DNA from: Antrihabitans stalactiti
GTDB lineage: Bacteria > Actinomycetota > Actinomycetes > Mycobacteriales > Mycobacteriaceae
NCBI RefSeq assembly: GCF_012932915.1
Contig: NZ_VCQU01000001.1
Coordinates: 620,001-684,000, forward strand
Length of the DNA: 64,000 nt
Direction of reading: 5' to 3'
The translations under genes and the position numbers were made by a program. Of the stretch, positions 11,290 to 57,688 are shown piece by piece (within the stretch, counting starts at the first letter, position 1; each line of letters begins with the position of its first letter). The notes below the pieces were generated by a model, which did not search any database, was not told the DNA's origin, and worked only from the letters and a program-made list of their open reading frames with translations.

Positions 11290-11348
11290 CCCACCCCTCG
11301 TGAGTCTTTTAGGAGTCCAGAGACTCCGAAAAGACTCACGAGGGTGGG
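11290..11348. repeat. Dispersed hairpin element, copy 1 (convergent gene end)
   Basis: The left arm reads CTCGTGAGTC, TTTT, AGGAGTC; the right arm is its complement with one mismatch, and flanking CCCACC/GGTGGG extends the stem to about 27 bp. The stop codon of the TerD-vWA gene (11336-11338) lies in the right arm, and the rskA stop is 3 bp to the left. A bidirectional terminator is the likely role. Other copies are at 20303, 54521 and 56383. Confidence 0.85.
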
Positions 11349-12859
11349 AGCAGTCCCTTCTGCTTCGCCTGCACGACCCAGCCGGGGTACTCGTTCATCA
11401 TGAGGTCGTAGAGCTGACCGTCGGGAAGCGACGCCGGGTCGGCGACCGAGAAGAAGTCGGCGTTGTCGAGGAATCGGCCCGGCAGGTCGTCGAGTTCTTC
11501 GAGGAACTTGAAGTCGCCCGTTGCGAGCGCCGCGAGCCTGGCGCCCAAGCCGCCGCCGGCAGGCTTGGTCCTACCGAACATGCCTTTTCGTTGCTGCGGT
11601 GGCGGAGGCGGTGCACTGGGCTGGAGCGGATTGAGGTGCTTGGCGTTGTCGTACGCCGGGTCCGGGATGACGTTCTTGGTGGACTGTCCGAGCGCCATGA
11701 ACTGCCAGAACAACGGCTCGAACGACGACCACGTGACCTGGTTGCGGGTGCCGTTCTGATCGGTCGTCTGACCATCGGTGACGAACATGACGTAGACGGG
11801 CAGCTTGTCGGGGCGTGGGGTATTACGAGGTCCCCCACCGGATTCCGGGAAGTAGAACCGCCGGACCGCTTCCATCGCGTGGTTGTAATTGGTGCCGCCT
11901 TCGAGCGGACGCCTGCGCAGCAGACCGTCCACCCAACCGCCATAGTTCTTCAGATCGAGCGGACCCTCCTCGTATCCCCCTGTGCCGAAGGTGAATACGT
12001 CGCATGCGCCGTCGTCGTCGAACTGGACAGCCAGACCGAGAATCCGCTCGCACAACTGCTGCACCTTGCCGGACCGGTACAGCGGGTGCATCGAACCCGA
12101 GATATCCAGGCACAACGCAACTCTTGCCCGGTGCTCGCTCAACCCCTTCTTCTCGAGGGAGATGCCCGCCTTCTGGACCATCTTCACCATGTTGGGCGGC
12201 TGGCCTTGCAGCTGCTTCTGCAGGCGGACCCCCTTGCTCATGCTGATCGACTGACCGCCAGCCTGCTGTGGCGGCGCCTGCCGGGGCGGCGCTTGCCGGG
12301 GCGGCGCTTGCGTCGGTGGGGGTGGCGGCGGGGCGGCAGCGGGCTCGTCGTCGACGGTGATGCCGTAATCGCCTGCAAGTCCAGCCAATCCAGAGGCCCA
12401 TCCCTGCCCGACAGCGCGGAACTTCCACGCGCCGTTGCGCTTGTACAGCTCCCCGAGCACGAACGCTGTCTCGGTTGCCGCAGGCGGGACATCGAAGCGG
12501 ACCAGCTCGTTGGCGCCGGTCTCGTCGAGTACCCGGACCGCCAGACCCCCGACCTGGCTGAACGGCGCGCCGTCTGCCGATGCGGTGACCGCGACCGTTT
12601 CGATTGCGGCGGGCATCGCTGCGAGATCGACGCTGAGAGCGTCCCTCGTACCGGACTTCCCGAGGTGCCGGACCGTGCCCTCGGCAGAGCTCGGCTGGTT
12701 GTAGAAGATCATGTCCGCGTCGGAGCGGACCTTGCCCGCCGCGGTCAGCAGCAGGGCCGTTGCGTCGAGATTCGGCCCACCTGCCCACACGACCTCGACG
12801 TTGACTTTCCGGACTCCTGCGGGGAGCCCGACGTTGCCGCCCTTGGTAATTGTCGTCAC
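11336..12859 (-). CDS. TerD-domain protein fused to a von Willebrand factor A domain
   Basis: The 507-residue protein has an N-terminal TerD domain (residues 1-170, including VRSDADMIFYNQ), a Pro/Gln-rich linker, then a vWA domain starting near residue 245 with the metal-ion motif DISGSM (DxSxS). A second Pro-rich insert (PSAPPPPPQQ) follows and the tail ends with EYPGWVVQAKQ. TerD domains bind calcium; vWA domains bind metals and protein partners. This layout occurs in bacterial stress/tellurite-type gene sets, but no other ter gene is visible nearby. A cytosolic, Ca2+-responsive scaffold is a plausible inference. Confidence 0.85.
   Translation of the reverse strand: MTTITKGGNVGLPAGVRKVNVEVVWAGGPNLDATALLLTAAGKVRSDADMIFYNQPSSAEGTVRHLGKSGTRDALSVDLAAMPAAIETVAVTASADGAPFSQVGGLAVRVLDETGANELVRFDVPPAATETAFVLGELYKRNGAWKFRAVGQGWASGLAGLAGDYGITVDDEPAAAPPPPPPTQAPPRQAPPRQAPPQQAGGQSISMSKGVRLQKQLQGQPPNMVKMVQKAGISLEKKGLSEHRARVALCLDISGSMHPLYRSGKVQQLCERILGLAVQFDDDGACDVFTFGTGGYEEGPLDLKNYGGWVDGLLRRRPLEGGTNYNHAMEAVRRFYFPESGGGPRNTPRPDKLPVYVMFVTDGQTTDQNGTRNQVTWSSFEPLFWQFMALGQSTKNVIPDPAYDNAKHLNPLQPSAPPPPPQQRKGMFGRTKPAGGGLGARLAALATGDFKFLEELDDLPGRFLDNADFFSVADPASLPDGQLYDLMMNEYPGWVVQAKQKGLLPPS
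12268..12312. repeat. Short tandem repeat in the TerD-vWA linker
   Basis: About three copies of a 15-base unit (GGGGCGGCGCTTGCC, the first with one change) encode the QAPPR-type repeats of the linker. Such repeats can vary in number between strains. Confidence 0.6.
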
Positions 12860-18975: not shown

Positions 18976-19398
18976 ATGAGTTCAACCGAATCGAAGCCTC
19001 CCGTCCAGCTGAGTGACGATGAGTGGCGCGTGCGCCTGACACCAGCGGAATTCAAGGTTCTCCGCCTGGCTGGCACCGAGCGCGCATTCACCGGCGAATA
19101 CACCGATACCAAGACCGAAGGCGTCTACGAGTGCCGCGCCTGCGGAGCCGAATTGTTCCGCAGCACCGAGAAGTTCGACTCGCACTGCGGCTGGCCGTCG
19201 TTCTTCGACCCTAAGGATTCCGACGCCGTCATCCTGCGGGAGGACCGGTCGCTGTTTCAGCGCCGCGTCGAAGTGTTGTGCGCGAACTGCCACAGCCACC
19301 TCGGCCACGTCTTCGAAGGCGAGGGCTACAACAACCCGACCGACAAGCGGTACTGCATCAACAGCATTTCGTTGCGTTTGAAGCCGGCCGAAGGCTAG
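18976..19398 (+). CDS. msrB: Peptide-methionine (R)-S-oxide reductase MsrB
   Basis: The 140-residue enzyme has every expected residue: structural zinc cysteines C53/C56 and C102/C105, the HCGWPSFF segment (70-77), and the catalytic Cys127 in RYCINS. It repairs the R form of methionine sulfoxide in proteins with thioredoxin as reductant. It lies 19 bp after aftC, as in M. tuberculosis (Rv2674). A hairpin follows at 19414. Confidence 0.95.
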   Translation: MSSTESKPPVQLSDDEWRVRLTPAEFKVLRLAGTERAFTGEYTDTKTEGVYECRACGAELFRSTEKFDSHCGWPSFFDPKDSDAVILREDRSLFQRRVEVLCANCHSHLGHVFEGEGYNNPTDKRYCINSISLRLKPAEG

Positions 19399-19413
19399 GC
19401 GGCTGCGCCGCCC

Positions 19414-19453
19414 GTGCGTGAGTTTGGCCTCCGGAGGGGCCAAACTCACGCAC
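19414..19453. terminator. Strong hairpin after msrB
   Basis: Arms GTGCGTGAGTTTGGCC and GGCCAAACTCACGCAC flank a TCCGGAGG loop. It ends the aftC-msrB unit before the NadR-like gene. Its outer GTGAGT/ACTCAC parts resemble the dispersed 46-bp element, but the core differs. It also shows that the open frame from 19418 cannot be the real start of the next gene. Confidence 0.75.
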
Positions 19454-19483: not shown

Positions 19484-20302
19484 GTGTTCCGCCACGGGGT
19501 CATCATCGGCAAGTTCTATCCGCCGCACGCCGGTCACCACTATCTGATCCTCGAGGCGGCGGCCGCAGCGGAGAATGTCACCGTCGTGGTGATGGCGTCG
19601 GTGACCGAATCGGTGTCGTTGGCCGATCGGATCACGTGGCTGCGCGCTGAGCACGAAGGCGTGCCGGGAGTCGCCATCAGCGGAATCACCTGCGACGCAC
19701 CATTCGACCTCACTTCCCGCACCGTGTGGGCCGCGCAGACGGCATGTATGAAAGCTGCGGTCCGCGTGGTCAACACCGAACCTGTGGACGCGGTGTTCAC
19801 CAGCGAGGCCTACGGCGACGAATTGGCCGGCTGGTTCGGCGCCAAGCACGTCTCGGTCGACCCGGACCGCGGGCATGTCCCGATATCGGCGAGTGCCTGT
19901 CGAGACGATCTGGCTGGCATGTGGTCGCAGTTGAGCGAACCGGTCCGGATTGGGTTGGTCACGCAGATCGTCGTCGTCGGCACGGGCGCCGCTGATATGA
20001 GTCGCCAACTGACCGAGCATTATCGCGGCCGCGGCGGAATTTGGGCCAAGACCGACGACACGCCAAGTTCACCGGTCCTCATCCGGGACGTCGATCCATA
20101 CCAGCACCGACCCCCCGGCTCGGAATATCTCGTTCTCGATGAAGACGACGAGTCCACCACCAGGTTGGTCGACGCACTCACCGCCGCAGGTCAATCCTGG
20201 ATTCTGTTGACCGGCACGCCAGCGGAACGACTCGACCTCGCGGTCCGGGTGTCGGACAAGGCGATCGCGTACCGCGCGAAATTCGGTCCGCGCGGCAACT
20301 GA
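19484..20302 (+). CDS. NadR-like nucleotidyltransferase with a degenerate kinase half
   Basis: From GTG 19484 the protein has 272 residues. Residues 1-150 form an HIGH-superfamily nucleotidyltransferase: GKFYPPHAGHH carries the HxGH motif, and ISASACRDDLAGMW fits the ISxxxxR motif of NMN adenylyltransferases. Residues 160-272 occupy the place of the ribosylnicotinamide kinase of NadR, but the P-loop position reads VVVGTGAADMSRQL, without the GxxxxGKS/T lysine. Expected role is NAD salvage (NMN to NAD); kinase activity is doubtful. No DNA-binding domain is present. Confidence 0.75.
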   Translation: MFRHGVIIGKFYPPHAGHHYLILEAAAAAENVTVVVMASVTESVSLADRITWLRAEHEGVPGVAISGITCDAPFDLTSRTVWAAQTACMKAAVRVVNTEPVDAVFTSEAYGDELAGWFGAKHVSVDPDRGHVPISASACRDDLAGMWSQLSEPVRIGLVTQIVVVGTGAADMSRQLTEHYRGRGGIWAKTDDTPSSPVLIRDVDPYQHRPPGSEYLVLDEDDESTTRLVDALTAAGQSWILLTGTPAERLDLAVRVSDKAIAYRAKFGPRGN

Positions 20303-20348
20303 CTCGTGAGTCTTTTTGGAGTCCATAGACTCCTAAAGGACTCACGAG
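20303..20348. repeat. Dispersed hairpin element, copy 2 (convergent gene end)
   Basis: This copy runs CTCGTGAGTC, TTTTT, GGAGTCC, then ATA, and returns through GACTCC, TAAAG, GACTCACGAG. It starts directly after the stop of the NadR-like gene and lies 10 bp from the end of hemQ on the other strand. Two bases in the right arm differ from the consensus, so the stem is slightly imperfect. Confidence 0.85.
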
Positions 20349-20357
20349 GATTGGGTG

Positions 20358-21053
20358 CTACGGGAGTGCGGCGATCAGCTTGTCGACGTCGACGCGCGGA
20401 CCGGTGAAGAACGGAATCTCTTCGCGCACATGCAGTCTCGCCTCGGTGGCACGGAGATCACGCATCAAGTCGACGATGCGGTGCAGCTCAGGAGCCTCGA
20501 ACGCCAGGATCCACTCGTAATCGCCCAGCGCGAACGAACTGACGGTGTTGGCACGAACATCGGGGTAGGTGCGCGCAGCTTTGCCGTGGTCGGCGAGCAT
20601 CTTGCGGCGCTCCTCATCGGGCAGCAGGTACCACTCGTAGGACCGGACGAAGGGGTAGACGCAGATGTAGTTACCCGCCTCCTCCCCCGCGAGGAACGCC
20701 GGGACGTGGCTCTTGTTGAACTCTGCGGGCCGATGGATCGCGACGTTGCTCCATACCGGCGCGCTGGCTTTACCCAACGCTGTCGTGCGGCGGAAATCGG
20801 AGTACGCGGTCTGAAGGTCTTCGACGTGCTCAGCGTGGGTCCACAACATGAAGTCGGCATCGGCGCGCAAACCCGCGACGTCGTAGATCCCCCGGACCAC
20901 AACGCCTTTGTCCTCGAGTCCTTCGAAGAAGATCCGCGCTTCTTTGATCGCAGCTTCACGGTCGTCGCCGAGAACGCCCGGCTGAACTTGGAATACCGAG
21001 AACATCAGGTAGCGGATCGTCGAATTCAATGCTTGGTAATCGAGGCGTGCCAT
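20358..21053 (-). CDS. hemQ: Coproheme decarboxylase HemQ/ChdC (chlorite-dismutase family)
   Basis: The 231-residue protein is an actinobacterial ChdC. The proximal heme ligand is probably His156 ([17 protein letters not shown]) and the catalytic tyrosine Tyr133 ([13 protein letters not shown]). It removes two propionates from coproheme with peroxide to make heme b, the last step of the coproporphyrin-dependent pathway. It lies 4 bp downstream of hemY and forms one operon with hemE-hemY-hemQ, as in Rv2678c-Rv2676c. Confidence 0.95.
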
Positions 21054-31293: not shown

Positions 31294-32532
31294 ATGTCCG
31301 ATACGACCGCTGAGCGGGAAGAGGAAACCCCCGCATCGACGGCGGTGCCGCTGCTGGTACCTGCCGACGGGGTGCCGGACGTCCTGACCAGCGCAGACGA
31401 GGTCGCCGAGGCCGCAGCATCGATCGCCGCCGGTACCGGACCGCTTGCCGTCGACGCCGAACGAGCCTCGGGATTCCGCTATTCGGGCCGCGCGTATCTG
31501 ATCCAACTTCGGCGCGCGGGCGCCGGATCTTTTCTGATCGACCCGATCCCCACCGCCGACGCCATGGCGCCGCTGGCAGCTGCAATCAATCCGCTCGAGT
31601 GGATTCTGCATTCCGCCGACCAGGATCTACCCGGCTTGGCCGAGCTCGGCTTGGCGCCCGCAAAGCTGTTCGACACCGAACTAGCCGGACGCCTCGCGGG
31701 ATTCGAACGAGTCGGGCTGGCCGCCGTCGTCGAGTCGACACTCGGGCTGGAACTGCGCAAAGGCCACGGTGCGGCCGATTGGTCGGTCCGGCCGTTGCCT
31801 GATGCGTGGCTCAACTACGCCGCGCTTGACGTCGAAGTGCTGCTCGAACTGCGGGAAGAAATGGCGAAGGAACTTGCCGAGCAAGGTAAGGCCGACTGGG
31901 CAGCGCAGGAATTCGAGTACGTCCGGACCATGGGCCCGCCGAAACCCAAACCCGATCGCTGGCGCCGAACCTCGCAGATCCACACGTTGAAGAAGGCCCG
32001 CCAACTCGCGGCTGTGCGGTCGCTGTGGCAGGCACGCGACGCCGTCGCCGCCGAACGCGACGTCGCACCCGGGCGGATCCTGCCGGACTCTGCCATCGTC
32101 GCCGCAGCGGTCGCAGACCCGCGCTCCATCGACGAGCTCCGCAAACTGCCGGTCTTCGGCGGTCCGCGACAACGACGGTCCGCGCGACTGTGGTTCGACG
32201 CGTTGCGGGCGGCGCGGGCACTACCGGACGACGAACTGCCGCCGCTGGCGAAGCCGTTCGACGGTCCGCCGCCGGTCAATCGGTGGGAGCGCCGCAATCC
32301 CGAAGCCGCTGCCCGGATCACAGCGGCTCGGGCGGTGATGACGGAGCTCAGTGCCGAGGTGAACATCCCGGTCGAGAACCTGTTGACACCCGACCTGCTG
32401 CGGAGGCTGTGCTGGGACGGCACCGCGCACACCGAAGCGGAGATCGATGCCTACCTGGCGGCCGGCAACGCACGCCCGTGGCAACGGGAATTGACGGCTC
32501 CCAGGCTCAGCACTGCACTCCACGAACTGTGA
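31294..32532 (+). CDS. rnd: Ribonuclease D-like 3'-5' exonuclease with HRDC domain
   Basis: The 412-residue protein has a DEDD exonuclease domain: motif I PLAVDAERA (DxE), motif II ILHSADQDLPGL and motif III LNYAALDVEVLLEL (YxxxD). A C-terminal HRDC-type helical region follows (about 215-300, WQARDAVAAERDVAPGRILPD), with an extra C-terminal domain. It should trim 3' ends of stable RNA. It corresponds to Rv2681, beside dxs. ATG 31294 is used; the 16 codons upstream lie in the regulatory region. Confidence 0.9.
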   Translation: MSDTTAEREEETPASTAVPLLVPADGVPDVLTSADEVAEAAASIAAGTGPLAVDAERASGFRYSGRAYLIQLRRAGAGSFLIDPIPTADAMAPLAAAINPLEWILHSADQDLPGLAELGLAPAKLFDTELAGRLAGFERVGLAAVVESTLGLELRKGHGAADWSVRPLPDAWLNYAALDVEVLLELREEMAKELAEQGKADWAAQEFEYVRTMGPPKPKPDRWRRTSQIHTLKKARQLAAVRSLWQARDAVAAERDVAPGRILPDSAIVAAAVADPRSIDELRKLPVFGGPRQRRSARLWFDALRAARALPDDELPPLAKPFDGPPPVNRWERRNPEAAARITAARAVMTELSAEVNIPVENLLTPDLLRRLCWDGTAHTEAEIDAYLAAGNARPWQRELTAPRLSTALHEL

Positions 32533-32539
32533 GTGAATT

Positions 32540-34435
32540 TCACCCCTGGGAGGGTAAGGCGCGCGCACAGGCGGCGTAGCCGCTGATCTTGCGGGCGAGG
32601 TCCGCGGCGGTGAGCCCGAGGTCGCGATGAATCTGGTCGCGCGAGGCATGGTCCAGGAATCGCTGCGGCACACCGAGATCGCGGCACGGCACATCGACGC
32701 CTGCCGCGCGCAGCACTGCTGAGACGGTCGAGCCGATGCCACCGTGGACGCCGCTGTCTTCCAACGTGACGACCAAGCGGAAATCCTCGGCCAGCTTCAC
32801 CACAGCCTCTGGCACCGGCAGCACCCACCGCGGATCGACGACCGCTGCGGAAATACCTTGCTCGGCGAGGTGATTCGCGGTTTCGAGCGCAAGGCTGGCG
32901 AACGGACCGACGGCGACGATCAATACGTCACCATGGTTCTCGCTCGGCATGCGAAGAACGTCGACGCCATCGATGCGATCGATCGCGGAAATGTCCTCGA
33001 CGACAGCACCCTTCGGGAAGCGGATCGCAGTCGGACCATCGTTGATGGCGAGCGCCTCTGCCAACTCCTCGCGCAGCGTGACCGCATCCCGCGGCGCCGC
33101 GACCCGTATGCCGGGAACGATTCCGAGCAACGACAGATCCCACATGCCGTTATGGCTGGCACCGTCTTGACCGGTGACACCCGAACGGTCGAGCACCAAC
33201 GTGACCGGCAGGTCGAGCAGCGCGACGTCCATCAACAACTGATCGAACGCGCGGTTCAAGAAGGTCGAGTAGATGGCAACGACAGGGTGCAAGCCGCCGA
33301 GCGCCAAGCCCGCCGCGGACGTGACGGCCTGCTGCTCGGCGATACCGACATCGAACATCCGGTCGGGAAACCGCTCGCCGAACGCGGCGAGACCGGTGGG
33401 GCCGGCCATTGCCGCCGTGATTGCGACGATGTCTTTGCGCTGCTCCGCGTGCTTGATGAGCTCGGCGGAGAACACCGAAGTCCAGTCCGGCGCCGACGTG
33501 GTGGTCGCTATGCCCGTGAGGGGGTCGATGACGCCGCACGCGTGCATCTGGTCGGCCTCGTGGTTCTCGGCGGGCGCGTAGCCCATCCCCTTACGAGTGA
33601 CGGCGTGCACGATCACCGGACCGCCGAACGCTTTCGCGCGATGGAACGCAGCCTCCATCGCACGCTCGTCGTGACCGTCCACCGGACCGAGATACTTGAT
33701 GCCGAGGTCGGTGAAGAGCACTTGCGGGCTCATCGCGTCCTTCAGCCCAGCCTTGACGCCATGGAGAATCGAGTATGCGGACTGCCCGATCCATGGCATG
33801 CGCTGAACGAAGCGTCGACCGGTTTCGAGGGCTCTCTCGTACTGCGGCTGCAACCGCAGCGCCGCCAGCCGGTCGGCAAGCCCACCGATCGTGGGCGCGT
33901 ACGAACGGCCGTTGTCGTTGACGACGATGACGACAGACCGGTCCTTGGCCGAGGCGATGTTGTTGAGCGCCTCCCAGCACATCCCGCCGGTCAGCGCACC
34001 ATCACCGACGACGGCGACGACATGGCGCTGCTGGCCGGTGAGATGGAAGGCCTTCGCGAGACCGTCTGCATAGGACAGTGAAGCCGACGCGTGCGATGAC
34101 TCGACCCAGTCGTGGTCACTCTCGGCACGGCTCGGGTAACCCGACAGACCGCCTTGCTTGCGTAGGTCGTCGAACCGGTCTCTGCGGCCGGTGAGGATCT
34201 TGTGGACGTAGGCCTGGTGGCCGGTGTCGAAGATGATGGCGTCGTTCGGGGAATCGAACACCCGGTGCATCGCGATCGTCAGTTCGACGACACCGAGGTT
34301 CGGGCCAAGATGCCCGCCGGTTGCTGAGACCTTCTGAACGAGGAAGTCGCGAATCTCGTCTGCCAGCTCGCTGAGCTCGGCTTGCGTGAGACCGCGTAGA
34401 TCCGCCGGTGCGTCGACCCGGGATAGAACACCCAA
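32540..34435 (-). CDS. dxs: 1-deoxy-D-xylulose-5-phosphate synthase
   Basis: The enzyme condenses pyruvate and glyceraldehyde-3-phosphate with ThDP, the first step of the non-mevalonate isoprenoid pathway. [16 protein letters not shown] is the ThDP diphosphate motif; [12 protein letters not shown] and [15 protein letters not shown] are family signatures. From TTG 34435 the protein is 631 residues and begins [15 protein letters not shown], the usual DXS start, with AAGGGAG seven bases upstream. An in-frame ATG at 34492 would add 19 residues with weaker support. It equals Rv2682c and is convergent with the RNase D gene. Confidence 0.94.
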
Positions 34436-34642
34436 CGAATCGCTCCCTTCGGACGTCCGACTTCGACTGGCGGGGTCTGTCGGCGTGAACATTTCCCGTC
34501 AGTCTACGGAGCTTCGGGAGTGCAACGAGTCGCCAGCCGGGCGCCGTCTGCCCATTATGCCGGACGGAGTGAGTGAGATCACGCCGCATCACACGGCTAG
34601 GGTCGAGTTTGGGCGAGACCACCAACGGGGAGGGTTGTCGAC

Positions 34643-53151: not shown

Positions 53152-54522
53152 GTGGTAGCCACGACCCGACAGACCACTGATTCACCAGCTCCCGAGGACC
53201 CGAACGGAGCCGTCGCCCCGACTGCACGCCGGGCGCCGGCGAAGAAAGTGGCTGCGAAGAAGGCTCCCGCCAAGAAGGCGGCGCCAGCAAAGAAGGCTCC
53301 AGCAAAGAAAGCACCTGCCAAGGCGACTGACGCCAAGGCCACCTCGCCTGCCGAACCCGGCGATATCGATCCCGATGCCGAGCCAGCTGATATCGAAGAC
53401 ATCAGCGAGCTCGACGTCCCCGAAGGCGATCTTGCAGCCGTCGAGTCCGACGTGGTCGAGGTCGTCGCCGTCGGTGCCGAGGTAGAAGAGGACGGCGCGG
53501 TCGATGAACCGACCAGTGCCGACAAGGCGTCTGGCGACTTCGTCTGGGACGAAGAAGAGTCCGAAGCCCTGCGGCAGGCCCGCAAGGACGCCGAACTCAC
53601 TGCTTCGGCCGACTCGGTCCGTGCCTACCTCAAGCAGATCGGCAAGGTTGCCCTCCTCAACGCCGAAGAGGAGGTCGAGCTCGCCAAGCGCATCGAGGCC
53701 GGGCTGTACGCCACCGAGAAGATGCGCGAGCTGGCCGACAAGGGCGAGAAGCTGCCCGTTGCCCAGCGTCGCGATCTCAACTGGATCTGCCGCGACGGTA
53801 ACCGCGCCAAGAACCACCTGCTCGAAGCCAACCTTCGCCTCGTCGTGTCGCTCGCCAAGCGCTACACCGGCCGCGGCATGGCGTTCCTGGACCTCATCCA
53901 GGAAGGCAACCTCGGTCTGATCCGCGCGGTCGAGAAGTTCGACTACACCAAGGGCTACAAGTTCTCGACGTACGCCACCTGGTGGATCCGGCAGGCCATC
54001 ACCCGCGCGATGGCCGACCAGGCCCGCACCATCCGTATTCCGGTGCACATGGTCGAGGTCATCAACAAGCTCGGCCGTATCCAGCGCGAACTTCTTCAGG
54101 ACCTGGGTCGCGAGCCCACTCCCGAAGAGCTCGCCAAGGAAATGGACATCACGCCGGAGAAGGTGCTGGAGATCCAGCAGTACGCGCGTGAGCCCATCTC
54201 GCTCGACCAGACCATCGGCGACGAAGGCGACAGCCAGCTCGGCGACTTCATCGAAGACTCCGAAGCGGTCGTTGCCGTCGACGCTGTCTCGTTCACCCTG
54301 CTGCAGGATCAGTTGCAATCCGTCCTGGAGACGCTGAGCGAGCGCGAAGCCGGTGTCGTCCGGCTGCGCTTCGGCCTCACCGACGGCCAGCCACGCACCC
54401 TCGACGAAATCGGTCAGGTCTACGGCGTCACGCGTGAGCGGATCCGTCAGATCGAATCGAAGACCATGAGCAAGCTGCGCCACCCGTCGCGGTCGCAGGT
54501 TCTTCGCGACTACCTGGACTGA
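53152..54522 (+). CDS. sigA: Principal RNA polymerase sigma factor SigA
   Basis: The protein has about 456 residues from GTG 53152, which is preceded by AAAGG; GTG 53146 is an alternative. Residues 20-55 are Lys/Ala/Pro repeats (PAKKA type) and 60-120 are acidic. The conserved core begins at [19 protein letters not shown] and is almost identical to mycobacterial SigA, with region 1.2 [15 protein letters not shown], region 2.3-2.4 [19 protein letters not shown], and region 4.2 [20 protein letters not shown]. It directs housekeeping transcription. A copy of the dispersed hairpin follows the stop. Confidence 0.97.
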
Positions 54523-54577
54523 CACCAGTCGTGAGTCTTTTTGGAGTCCAGAGACTCCAAAAAGACTCACGAGTGTC
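54521..54577. repeat. Dispersed hairpin element, copy 3 (sigA terminator)
   Basis: The core (54529-54572) is a perfect inverted repeat: TCGTGAGTC, TTTTT, GGAGTC, a CAGA loop, then GACTCC, AAAAA, GACTCACGA. GACAC/GTGTC at the edges extends it. It overlaps the sigA stop on the left and the stop of the convergent acyltransferase gene on the right. Confidence 0.88.
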
Positions 54578-55511
54578 AGCCGAACAGCGGCAGCGCGCGT
54601 TTGCGTGCCAAGGCGTCCATGCCGGACTGAATACTGTCCTGCACTTCGTGGTACTTGGCTTCGATGTACTGATCGTCTTTGACGCGCTCGGGATCGTGAT
54701 CGGCTTCGACGGGCGGCATGAAGCGAGTCCGGATCTTCGCGGGCAATGGGAACTGCGGCAGTGCGGCGGGCGCTATACCCCACGGCAGCGAGACCGCGAT
54801 CGGGAAGACCTTCAACCGAAACAGCTTGTCCAGTTTGAGTATTCGAGATAGTCGGTCACCGCGGATCAGCACAGGCATGGCGTCGGCGCCCCCGACGGTC
54901 GCGATCGGCACGATCGACACGCCTGCGCGAATCGCCATCTTCACGAATCCCGTCCGCCCAGCGAGGACGGCGCGATCGCGCTCGGTCCACGGCCGCAACG
55001 AGTCGACTTCGCCACCGGGCCACAACGCCACGTCTCGGCCTTCGGCGAGAGCAGTCGCGATGGAATCGGGCGCCGCCGGAAGCACTCCCATCGAACGGAA
55101 GTAGTTCCCGATCAGCGGGATCGCCATGAGCGCGTCGTGTGCAGTGCCGTGCAGCGGCCGCTCTTCGCCGAACCGGCGCCACCACTGCACGCCGACGGTC
55201 CATGCGTCCCAGACGAACGGCGCGCCGGAATGGATGCCCACAAGCAGGGCAGGTGGCTCGGGAATGTTTTCCCAGCCGTCTATCTCCATGCGGAACCAGT
55301 AGTCGATCAACGCATTCCAGACGTATTTCTGCCGCTGCATCGTTGCCTGGTCCGGTCCGCGAAGGTCCCATTTCCCTGCTCGAGCGGTGATCCACCCGGC
55401 GACACCGTCGGACTGCTCGTCCCTTTTCCGGTCCATGGTCGCGCGGGCTTCTTCGGCGTGGATTTGCGCCTGCTCTATCAGGTCTGTCGACCTTTTGTCG
55501 TCATTGGTCAT
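54576..55511 (-). CDS. Lysophospholipid acyltransferase family protein (DGAT2/PlsC-like)
   Basis: The 311-residue protein has the substrate-site pattern GIHSGAPFVWDAW near residue 95, where the histidine-to-acidic spacing is longer than the usual HX4D of PlsC, then LWPGGEVDSLRPW and GFVKMAIRAGVSIVPIATVGGAD. This layout fits the diacylglycerol/lysophospholipid acyltransferase superfamily acting at the cytosolic membrane face. The N-terminal 50 residues are charged and helical. The acyl acceptor is unknown. Confidence 0.8.
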   Translation of the reverse strand: MTNDDKRSTDLIEQAQIHAEEARATMDRKRDEQSDGVAGWITARAGKWDLRGPDQATMQRQKYVWNALIDYWFRMEIDGWENIPEPPALLVGIHSGAPFVWDAWTVGVQWWRRFGEERPLHGTAHDALMAIPLIGNYFRSMGVLPAAPDSIATALAEGRDVALWPGGEVDSLRPWTERDRAVLAGRTGFVKMAIRAGVSIVPIATVGGADAMPVLIRGDRLSRILKLDKLFRLKVFPIAVSLPWGIAPAALPQFPLPAKIRTRFMPPVEADHDPERVKDDQYIEAKYHEVQDSIQSGMDALARKRALPLFG

Positions 55512-56382: not shown

Positions 56383-56433
56383 CCCTCGTGAGTCTTTTTG
56401 GAGTCCCTGGACTCCAAAAAGACTCACGAGGGG
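56383..56433. repeat. Dispersed hairpin element, copy 4 (convergent gene end)
   Basis: The stem is a perfect match of about 23 bp: CCCTCGTGAGTC, TTTTT, GGAGTCC and its complement, with a CTG centre. It lies 12 bp after the upstream hydrolase stop and directly before the stop of the convergent hydrolase gene. Confidence 0.88.
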
Positions 56434-56434
56434 G

Positions 56435-57688
56435 TTAGTCGCCGAAGTGGTCGTGCAGCCACGCGCCGATGTCGGCGGCGGCCAGACTCGCCCCGCTCGG
56501 TTCGCCTGAACGAAGCGGTCCGCCGAAATGCGTTCCCGGTAGCCGGGCGAAGGTCTTGTCGTCGGCTCCCAGAGCGTCGGTCATCGCGGAAGCGTCCTCG
56601 GGGAAACATGCTTGATCACCGGACAATTCGACGAACAGCGTGGGCACCGTGACGTGTGGAGCGCAGCGGACGAAGTCGGCGTTCGTGGACAGTCCGGACC
56701 ACGTAGACAACCACGCGTCGGGAGTCGAGAAGCGCGCGAAGCCGACGAGACCGTAATTGGTCAGGTCCGGGCGCCGGCCGAACAGGGACCCATATGGTCG
56801 GTCGTTCGGGCTCAGCGACAAGTCGGTGAACCTGAGATCGGCGTCGGTGCGGTAGACGGTCAGCACCCTTGGAGCGAGAGCCGCACGGCGGTCGGCTGGG
56901 TCGCCGGTGGCCTTGAAGCGCCGACGTGCCGTGTCGGCTTCCGCGACGCGCTCGAGAGCGACCGCATCGAGGCGAGCTATCCGGTCCCGTTGGGCCGCAC
57001 GGTATTTGTCGACGAACTCGGGCGAGTAGGTCGAACTGCCGGGTGGTTCGGCGAAGCCGTTCTCGGCGGAAAAGGGGTTCAGCTCGGGGTCTACGGCGAG
57101 CGGATCGGTTTCGTCGATCACCGACGGGTCGATCAGCCGCATGAGCAGCGCCCCTTGGCCCGGATGCGGTGCCATGAAGATGGCGCCGTCGGGCAGCGGC
57201 AGGTCGGCGCCTGCGAGGTCCACCGGGCGACCGGCTGGAGTTGCGGCGACGCGCTCGGAAGGCGGCAGGCCGGCTTGTTCGTGGTAGAACGCGAACAACG
57301 TTCCGCCACCGGAGTGCCCGAGGGTGACGACGTTGGCGAACCTGCGGTCACGCAGAAACCGTTGCCCAGCAGCAGCATCCAGCAGCGCCTGCTCGTGCAC
57401 GAGCGCCACGTCGTTGTTCACCGACCGGGTGCCTTGCGTCCACACCGCGAAGCCGCGAGCAAGCAATTCAGGGACCAGAACGTGGTGGGTCAGGTCCTGC
57501 CGCGGGTGCATCAACGTGACGACCGTGGTGGCGTGCGGAACCACGCGCAGGACGCCCGACACCTTCGCGCCGTCGTGAGTGGTCAGTTCGTGCACCGCCG
57601 TGACCGTGTTGGCCGGCGCCTGCGCGGCCTCGATGTAGCGGCCCGCGCCCAGCCGTTGCTGGGTCTTGATCTGCACGGTCCGAGTCAT
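56435..57688 (-). CDS. Alpha/beta hydrolase, last gene of a coupled catabolic operon
   Basis: The 417-residue protein has a central nucleophile GHSGGGTLFAFYHEQ, with Asp in VELSGDQACFP and His in GTHFGG at the C-terminal end, and a helical insert between residues 165 and 290. ATG 57688 overlaps the stop of the 81-residue gene in ATGA, so translation is coupled. It is the last of four genes starting with the maleate-isomerase-like gene. It may cleave an ester or C-C bond in the same pathway. Confidence 0.82.
   Translation of the reverse strand: MTRTVQIKTQQRLGAGRYIEAAQAPANTVTAVHELTTHDGAKVSGVLRVVPHATTVVTLMHPRQDLTHHVLVPELLARGFAVWTQGTRSVNNDVALVHEQALLDAAAGQRFLRDRRFANVVTLGHSGGGTLFAFYHEQAGLPPSERVAATPAGRPVDLAGADLPLPDGAIFMAPHPGQGALLMRLIDPSVIDETDPLAVDPELNPFSAENGFAEPPGSSTYSPEFVDKYRAAQRDRIARLDAVALERVAEADTARRRFKATGDPADRRAALAPRVLTVYRTDADLRFTDLSLSPNDRPYGSLFGRRPDLTNYGLVGFARFSTPDAWLSTWSGLSTNADFVRCAPHVTVPTLFVELSGDQACFPEDASAMTDALGADDKTFARLPGTHFGGPLRSGEPSGASLAAADIGAWLHDHFGD

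Follow-up and report, generated by a model that had tools for sequence, protein, structure and literature searches.

Short palindromes with a 40-bp core, dispersed through the genome of Antrihabitans stalactiti and set close behind stop codons, are read here, with a probability of about 0.7, as a small non-autonomous REP-like mobile element whose copies survive at gene ends, where they probably form the 3′ ends of mRNAs. Copies would be made by an enzyme other than a Y1/RAYT transposase. Insertions would survive chiefly just behind coding sequences, where they harm no gene, and would persist by lending to the mRNAs from one or both sides a transcribed stem of 20–24 bp as a strong 3′ end. That end could be a terminator, or else a barrier or processing site.

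The window, the whole stretch of 64,000 nucleotides analysed, lies at C1:620001-684000 of the A. stalactiti assembly (G000; 6.76 Mb in 26 contigs). Comparisons were made with A. stalagmiti YC3-6 (G003), which belongs to the same GTDB genus, and with two further sister species (G001 and G002). We call F1 the hairpin family of the form GTGAGTC-N18..30-GACTCAC, and F2 a sister form, GTGCGYG-N26-CRCGCAC. The four near-identical inverted repeats reported by the first-pass annotation are all present where it placed them (Table 1), and they rank among the strongest of the window in an inverted-repeat scan. As it proposed, they sit between convergent genes at stop codons, with both flanking stops no more than 16 nt away from the core in all four cases, and each copy holds four GANTC sites, as counted by eye. 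The T5/A5 tracts that it described within the stem are unbroken in copies 3 and 4 (54.5 and 56.4 kb), but a variable base or mismatch interrupts them in the other two (TTTTA/GAAAA and TTTTT/TAAAG). RNA folds of the window copies range from -36.7 to -50.6 kcal/mol, and Rfam gave no match within the window at gathering scores. The core pattern, with up to 2 mismatches, matches the window exactly 4 times and none of 100 dinucleotide shuffles, an after-the-fact check given that the pattern was derived from the same four copies. The F2 element of the window has, on its stop side, the layout typical of A. stalagmiti described below, and its other side is without a visible mini-hairpin.

Table 1. Hairpin elements, neighbouring genes and insertion sequence (IS) loci. 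Positions are those of the window, except where a contig is named.
Feature	Position	Strand	Context
F1 copy 1	46-bp unit 11297-11342; core 11300-11339		convergent junction
RskA-like gene	ends 11287	+	left of copy 1
TerD/vWA gene	11336-12859	-	right of copy 1; its own stop is the TGA within the element
F1 copy 2	46-bp unit 20303-20348; core 20306-20345		convergent junction
Gene without Pfam match	19484-20302	+	left of copy 2
Chlorite dismutase family gene	20358-21053	-	right of copy 2
F1 copy 3	46-bp unit 54528-54573; core 54531-54570		convergent junction
Sigma-70 factor gene	ends 54522	+	left of copy 3
Acyltransferase gene	54576-55511	-	right of copy 3
F1 copy 4	46-bp unit 56385-56430; core 56388-56427		convergent junction
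Alpha/beta hydrolase gene	ends 56371	+	left of copy 4
Gene without Pfam match	56435-57688	-	right of copy 4
F2 40-bp element	19414-19453		co-directional junction, behind the SelR-domain gene
SelR-domain gene	18976-19398	+	TAG stop at 19396-19398
Mini-hairpin GCGGC-TGC-GCCGC	19399-19411		between the TAG stop and the F2 core
Possible degenerate 40-bp member	32529-32568		between convergent genes; weak (one mismatch, chance expectation 0.61)
Gene	31294-32532	+	flank of 32529-32568; its stop is the TGA in GTGA
Gene	32540-34492	-	flank of 32529-32568
TGT-ended IS loci, G000	C1:901816, C3:240183, C4:222705; contig starts C3, C7, C10, others
TGT-ended IS locus, G003	C42:353774
TGT-ended IS loci, ids	L295, L299, L303, L308, L311, L315, L316-L331, L142

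Genome-wide, F1 pairs number 199 in G000, 135 in G003, 2 in G002 and 0 in G001, and the reversed pattern, which provides the control independent of the window copies, gives 0 in all four. The ten-base word CTCGTGAGTC occurs 148+143 times in G000, its reversed control 2+1 times. These counts bear out the proposed dispersed family, whose sequence is conserved beyond the needs of terminator function; a small number of copies or a random placement, either of which would speak against it, was looked for and neither was found. The core is a GTG...CAC inverted repeat with 18-bp arms and a 4-nt loop. Its length is 40 bp in all 26 matches from unselected G000 and G003 stretches, found with fixed arms and a free gap, and in 126 of 127 members of a wider set, part of which was retrieved with a fixed-length pattern. 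We read 49 distinct F1 copies of G000, a non-random set made of those in 400 kb round the window and of loci taken in search-list order. The mean identity of their 40-mers is 94%, arm position 12 matches in 34 of the 49, and the only common sequence beyond the 46-bp unit is a weak CCCACCC/GGGTGGG tail. Scanned for palindromes of 40 bp, these 400 kb gave 22 elements (reversed control 0), of which 11 are F1 and 11 are others.

The position of these copies relative to genes is far from uniform. All junction counts depend on gene calls from a custom script, which are weaker in short loci. Among the 321 junctions of the 400 kb (190 co-directional, 66 convergent and 65 divergent), F1 occupies 10 convergent and 1 co-directional (P 1.2e-6 against 66/321). 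The 49 copies, which contain these 11, are distributed over 28 convergent, 19 co-directional and 2 divergent junctions, a convergent excess for which P is 2e-8 if measured by junction number and 3e-6 if measured by intergenic bases. The 11 sister-form elements of the 400 kb divide into 5 convergent, 5 co-directional and 1 divergent, and the 46 copies read in A. stalagmiti into 22, 15 and 4, with 5 at locus edges. The first-pass claim that the hairpins mark convergent gene ends thus stands as a preference, but with 19 of 49 copies co-directional and 2 divergent, F1 marks gene 3′ ends rather than convergent ends alone. The nearest stop codon lies at a median of 7 nt from the core in G000 (n=47), and both stops are within 16 nt of it in 21 of the 28 convergent copies. 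Co-directional copies are closer to the upstream stop than to the downstream start in 13 of 19 cases, which is not significant (P = 0.17). The TGA inside GTGAGTC is the stop of the gene itself in 11 of the 49 copies. Two cores of the 49 (C1:830366 and L010) lie entirely inside the final bases of a called ORF, which reads through the whole core just before its stop; in both, the element may encode the final residues of the protein. The other 47 cores are located between genes or overlap a gene end.

Evidence for the gain of copies comes from orthologous junctions, matched between G000 and the three sister species via reciprocal best proteins. The synteny of G000 and G003 was anchored by sigA, the hydrolase gene having led to a non-syntenic G003 contig. 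Elements of G000 with an adjacent orthologous pair number 5 for G003, 7 for G002 and 3 for G001, and the ortholog also carries an element in 1 of 5 (of another subfamily), 0 of 7 and 0 of 3, respectively; without junction 821903, a doubtful gene call, the numbers become 4 (1), 6 (0) and 2 (0). At 827641, 51 nt in G000 stand against 5, 11 and 4 nt in G003, G002 and G001; at 806454, 55 nt against 23, 8 and 20 in the same order; at 715641, 48 nt against 3 in G002; and at 676388 (copy 4 of the window), 63 nt against genes that overlap in G003 by our custom calls, with no hairpin there. These four near-gapless sister junctions point to a gain of the hairpin in G000. The reverse case is found at G003 291707, with 51 nt against 16 in G000 and 15 in G002. 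Together with the 199 copies, the empty orthologous sites agree with the proposal that the family spreads through a copying process.

The protein ends at such junctions are partly conserved. LRTSSW* is kept in all four species at 827641, and LWRLLA* in G000 and G002 faces LWRLLS* in G003, where the element contributes TCG-TGA; tails differ at 830366, and that of the right-hand gene is not kept at 806454 and 676388. The case for gain is weaker at co-directional junctions, where element-free sister gaps are as long (755749, 71 versus 129 nt; 781911, 129 versus 139; G002 417295, 79 versus 78, 89 and 58 nt). The genes at G000 830366 and G003 350238 are apparently orthologous, each of the two ending at an element, and since one or two junctions carry elements in both species, old shared sites with concerted change are possible. 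The end of sigA, where G000 has an F1 copy and G003 an ordinary hairpin of unrelated sequence, illustrates turnover.

The A. stalagmiti version of the element is more elaborate. Its 46 copies, read with 18 nt on each side, follow the order mini-hairpin, core, mini-hairpin. All 5 bp of the left mini-hairpin are paired at a fixed offset in 28 of these 46 and in 8 of 18 Rhodococcus copies, the 5-bp mini-hairpins being less regular in Rhodococcus spelaei and its relatives. In a gapless A. stalagmiti alignment, changes affect both sides in 9 of 10 mini-hairpin pairs, and the double-change cells (92 in the whole structure, 70 in the mini-hairpins) compare with a shuffle value of 50.9 (sd 7.0) and with 19-37 for slid controls; the structure was taken from the consensus, so that the paired percentage by itself is biased. 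Counting also the copies whose mini-hairpin is not intact, only 3 of 46 have the same outer five-base arm left and right, so it is the local stems that are maintained and not the overall dyad, which may be taken as a sign of single-strand folding, of RNA or DNA.

Stop codons occupy defined places in this version. Among 59 gene ends facing an element (41 copies), 35 have their stop at the tip, ending 14-16 nt from the core, 12 use the core TGA and 12 stop elsewhere, which places 47 of 59 at tip or core. Where no gene stops (23 sides), TAG stands at the tip in just 3 cases, so selection, and not the element sequence, probably maintains the T of TAG. At convergent junctions of A. stalagmiti, among them L223, L224, L258 and L271, the element often fills the entire stop-to-stop interval; no bases are left over on either side, a result not to be expected of simple insertion into an old gap.

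The hairpins are themselves landing pads for insertion sequences. Two kinds of IS with TGT ends, presumably IS481-like, lie inside them and were traced from hairpins broken at contig ends; the first kind has a diverged relative in G003. The places listed in G000 and G003 amount to 8 + 6 for the first kind and 15 for the second, and none were found in G002, G001 and G048. In all 19 junctions read among these 29 places (the remaining ten being of the second kind), the IS end follows directly after base 27 of the 40-mer, G003 included despite its different core. A 14-bp target duplication considered for these IS was dropped, since every junction represents the same IS end, in one orientation or the other. 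In both assemblies, several contig ends coincide with a TGT-ended IS. Other insertion sequences are found as well: at the end of C1 in G000 (L296:721-1373), a hairpin interrupted near base 14 is succeeded by an ISL3-type transposase (PF13542, PF14690), at the start of C9 in G000 (L310) a similar IS end comes after base 35 of a different hairpin, and a transposase with rve (PF00665) and HTH domains, which we take to be IS30-like, separates two half-hairpins (L244:2633-3913, contig3 of A. stalagmiti).

Across 401 genomes of the family, more than 2 GTGAGTC pairs per genome occur only within the genus of the window and in genus g21, of which the six members searched have 43, 15, 11, 11, 4 and 1; other genera have 0-2. 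Identical 40-mers suggest that g21 corresponds to the R. spelaei group. Among named genomes, a scan yielded at least 69 stretches, at least 41 of them from A. stalagmiti YC3-6 and the other 28 or more from Rhodococcus spelaei, maanshanensis, oryzae, zopfii and sp. RD6.2, Saccharopolyspora oryzae and elongata, and a Pseudonocardiaceae metagenome-assembled genome (MAG). The core sequence varies by lineage. The outer GTGAGTCYTT was built into one search pattern, where its sharing is by construction, and it is also shared among matches obtained with only GTGAGTC fixed. Related 40-bp hairpins with a different core are present in actinobacteria outside the family of the window (S. oryzae L222, L247, L260, L272, L275 and L286; S. 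elongata L277; the Pseudonocardiaceae MAG L226), and could reflect either an old superfamily or transfer. F2 has 128 copies in G000, 15 in G001, 42 in G002 and 8 in G003 (controls 0, 2, 1 and 0), the arm sequences listed for G000, G001 and G002 being mutually different. Among 14 genomes searched, three of g21 have 57, 46 and 16 copies, two of g23 and g27 have 36 and 39, and five others have 0-3 (controls 0-2). A 100-kb sample of G031, a genome only tentatively placed in its genus, held 3 hairpins, none of them of this family, and the genome has 2 F2 matches, which is too small a basis to judge mycobacteria. Viral contigs gave 0 matches to the core pattern, plasmids gave none to a query of one copy with its flanks, and the best-ranked matches of a literature search contained no description of the F1 family.

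Several explanations compete for the spread of the family. Its mobility rests on empty sites and copy number, because the searches brought out neither a clear target duplication nor a mobilising gene. Flanking direct repeats show no clear excess round the copies examined (49 of G000, 45 of A. stalagmiti and 18 of Rhodococcus); among the many boundaries tried there are small excesses of 2 bases, and decay in old copies is possible. As in MITEs, terminal inverted repeats are present, the whole element being an inverted repeat. Movement by a RAYT (Y1 HUH) transposase, as for REP elements, would suit the size, palindromy, placement behind genes, species-specific sequence and IS targeting that REPs display (PMC3733652, PMC8450116). 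At E 0.001, though, the Y1/RAYT domain PF01797 has no match in G000-G003 or in six g21 genomes, and the same search was positive in 5 of 14 controls and, within the family, in 3 further genomes. Only 4 of 49 copies in G000 and 2 of 46 in A. stalagmiti carry a GTAG or CGTC tag no more than 8 nt from the core. If the limit is widened to 18 nt, 25 of the 46 have GTAG, CGTC or a complement on at least one side, a point in favour of RAYT, but these matches come via one mini-hairpin loop variant of several and form no constant tag. RAYT mobilisation is very improbable, although a cognate Y1 gene that has since died out is conceivable. We find it equally hard to believe that F1 is the binding site of a nucleoid, partition or methylation-related protein. 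The fixed 40-bp length and the outer GTGAGTC half-sites conserved across two genera would fit, but one genome has different arm sequences (F1 and F2) in the same layout, and gene-end placement and stop-codon use are left unexplained. The GANTC methylase or binding-protein reading raised at first is weak, since the inner GAGTC pair of the GANTC sites is lost in A. stalagmiti and only the outer pair kept. Inverted pairs of DNA uptake signals, as in Neisseria and Pasteurellaceae, recall by their 10-mer pairs at gene ends the terminators of PMC1852404. We rejected them as next to impossible for lack of a surplus of single copies: CTCGTGAGTC is no more frequent than 199 hairpins supply, and 400 kb of G000 hold 0 unpaired F1 half-hairpins, which were also sought as traces of a parent IS. 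Among the listed places, single 10-mers outside hairpins number three (L014, L294 and L300); the 10-mer at C1:192546 is such a lone copy.

On the side of function, the hairpin probably shapes the ends of the messages of neighbouring genes, and a 3′-end barrier or processing site appears about as likely as an intrinsic terminator. A stable hairpin behind the stop codon, as expected of an intrinsic terminator, is indeed found. The family could then consist of immobile TRIT-like bidirectional terminators, selected site by site and homogenised by gene conversion. The position flush behind stop codons, the great stability of the hairpin, the different hairpins of G000 and G003 at the sigA end and the one or two junctions occupied in both species would all be accommodated, and a conserved terminator model, TRIT, exists for M. 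tuberculosis (PMC3526491). We nevertheless hold this to be unlikely. At four convergent junctions of G000, the sisters compared leave too little space for a hairpin of 40 bp. The stem carries its T-run on the 5′ arm and its A-run on the 3′ arm, an arrangement opposite to that in the bidirectional terminators of PMC1852404. The stem is followed by GAGGGTGGG-like flanks and by no U-tract, in agreement with the first reading of the window, which speaks against a canonical intrinsic terminator. A terminator consensus scan of 48-64 kb, covering two of the four window copies, listed neither among its 9 sites, and has little power with 9.3 sites in shuffles. A hairpin for 3′ RNA stability or RNase III processing, with transcription ending elsewhere, for example by Rho, is an appreciable, if not the favoured, possibility: the stem is long and near-perfect (20-24 bp), the mini-hairpins covary in A. 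stalagmiti and the U-tract is absent. It accounts for persistence and not for copying, and therefore competes with the functional step of the mobile-palindrome reading only. An extended form of that reading is put forward tentatively, as something we would sooner doubt than accept: a gene-end cassette in which the palindrome takes over the stop-to-stop interval, supplies stops and a 3′ hairpin to both genes, is copied by a kind of enzyme new to REP-like repeats and offers a landing pad to several IS families.

If the REP-like mobile palindrome is confirmed, many gene-end hairpins of these Mycobacteriales would be recent mobile insertions and not slowly evolved sites. It would add another REP-like family without a REP-moving transposase, in a group that goes unmentioned in the main text of the main REP survey (PMC3733652), where 'actinobacter', 'rhodococcus' and 'mycobacteri' each occur 0 times. 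What moves orphan REPs could then be tested in culturable relatives, and the hairpin would provide a ready marker of transcript ends for RNA 3′-end work in Antrihabitans and Rhodococcus. The precision at stop codons and the use as an IS landing pad would portray mobile DNA settling in a compact genome with little damage.

Among known systems, TRIT was reportedly described by Gardner et al. in 2011 (RNIE) as a conserved, repeated hairpin terminator motif near M. tuberculosis gene ends. By this description, F1 would resemble it as a repeated gene-end hairpin of Mycobacteriales, and differs in having no U-tract and in its empty-site evidence of gain. REPs are found mostly between convergent or co-directional ORFs, behind genes, and are plausibly transcribed (PMC3733652). 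Like REP/REPIN sequences of the GTAG and CGTC superfamilies, F1 is a short, high-copy, species-specific and mainly extragenic palindrome (PMC3733652), and the CGTC class is likewise without a known transposase (PMC3733652, PMC3116915). We do not class F1 as a REP because it has no consistent GTAG or CGTC tag and no RAYT was found; it is also set apart by its symmetric 40-bp core, its mini-hairpin arms and the stop codons within the element. In the uptake-signal terminators of Neisseria and Pasteurellaceae, inverted repeats of a conserved short word form gene-end hairpins (PMC1852404), as in F1, which in contrast has no single-copy surplus, numbers hundreds and not a thousand or more, and has 18-bp arms. 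ISPpu9 of P. putida has all seven copies at one specific site within a repeated palindrome (PMC8450116). Here, unlike ISPpu9, two kinds of TGT-ended IS share one base in two species with differing hairpin cores, and where the break falls at other bases the hairpins are next to transposases of the ISL3 and rve types.
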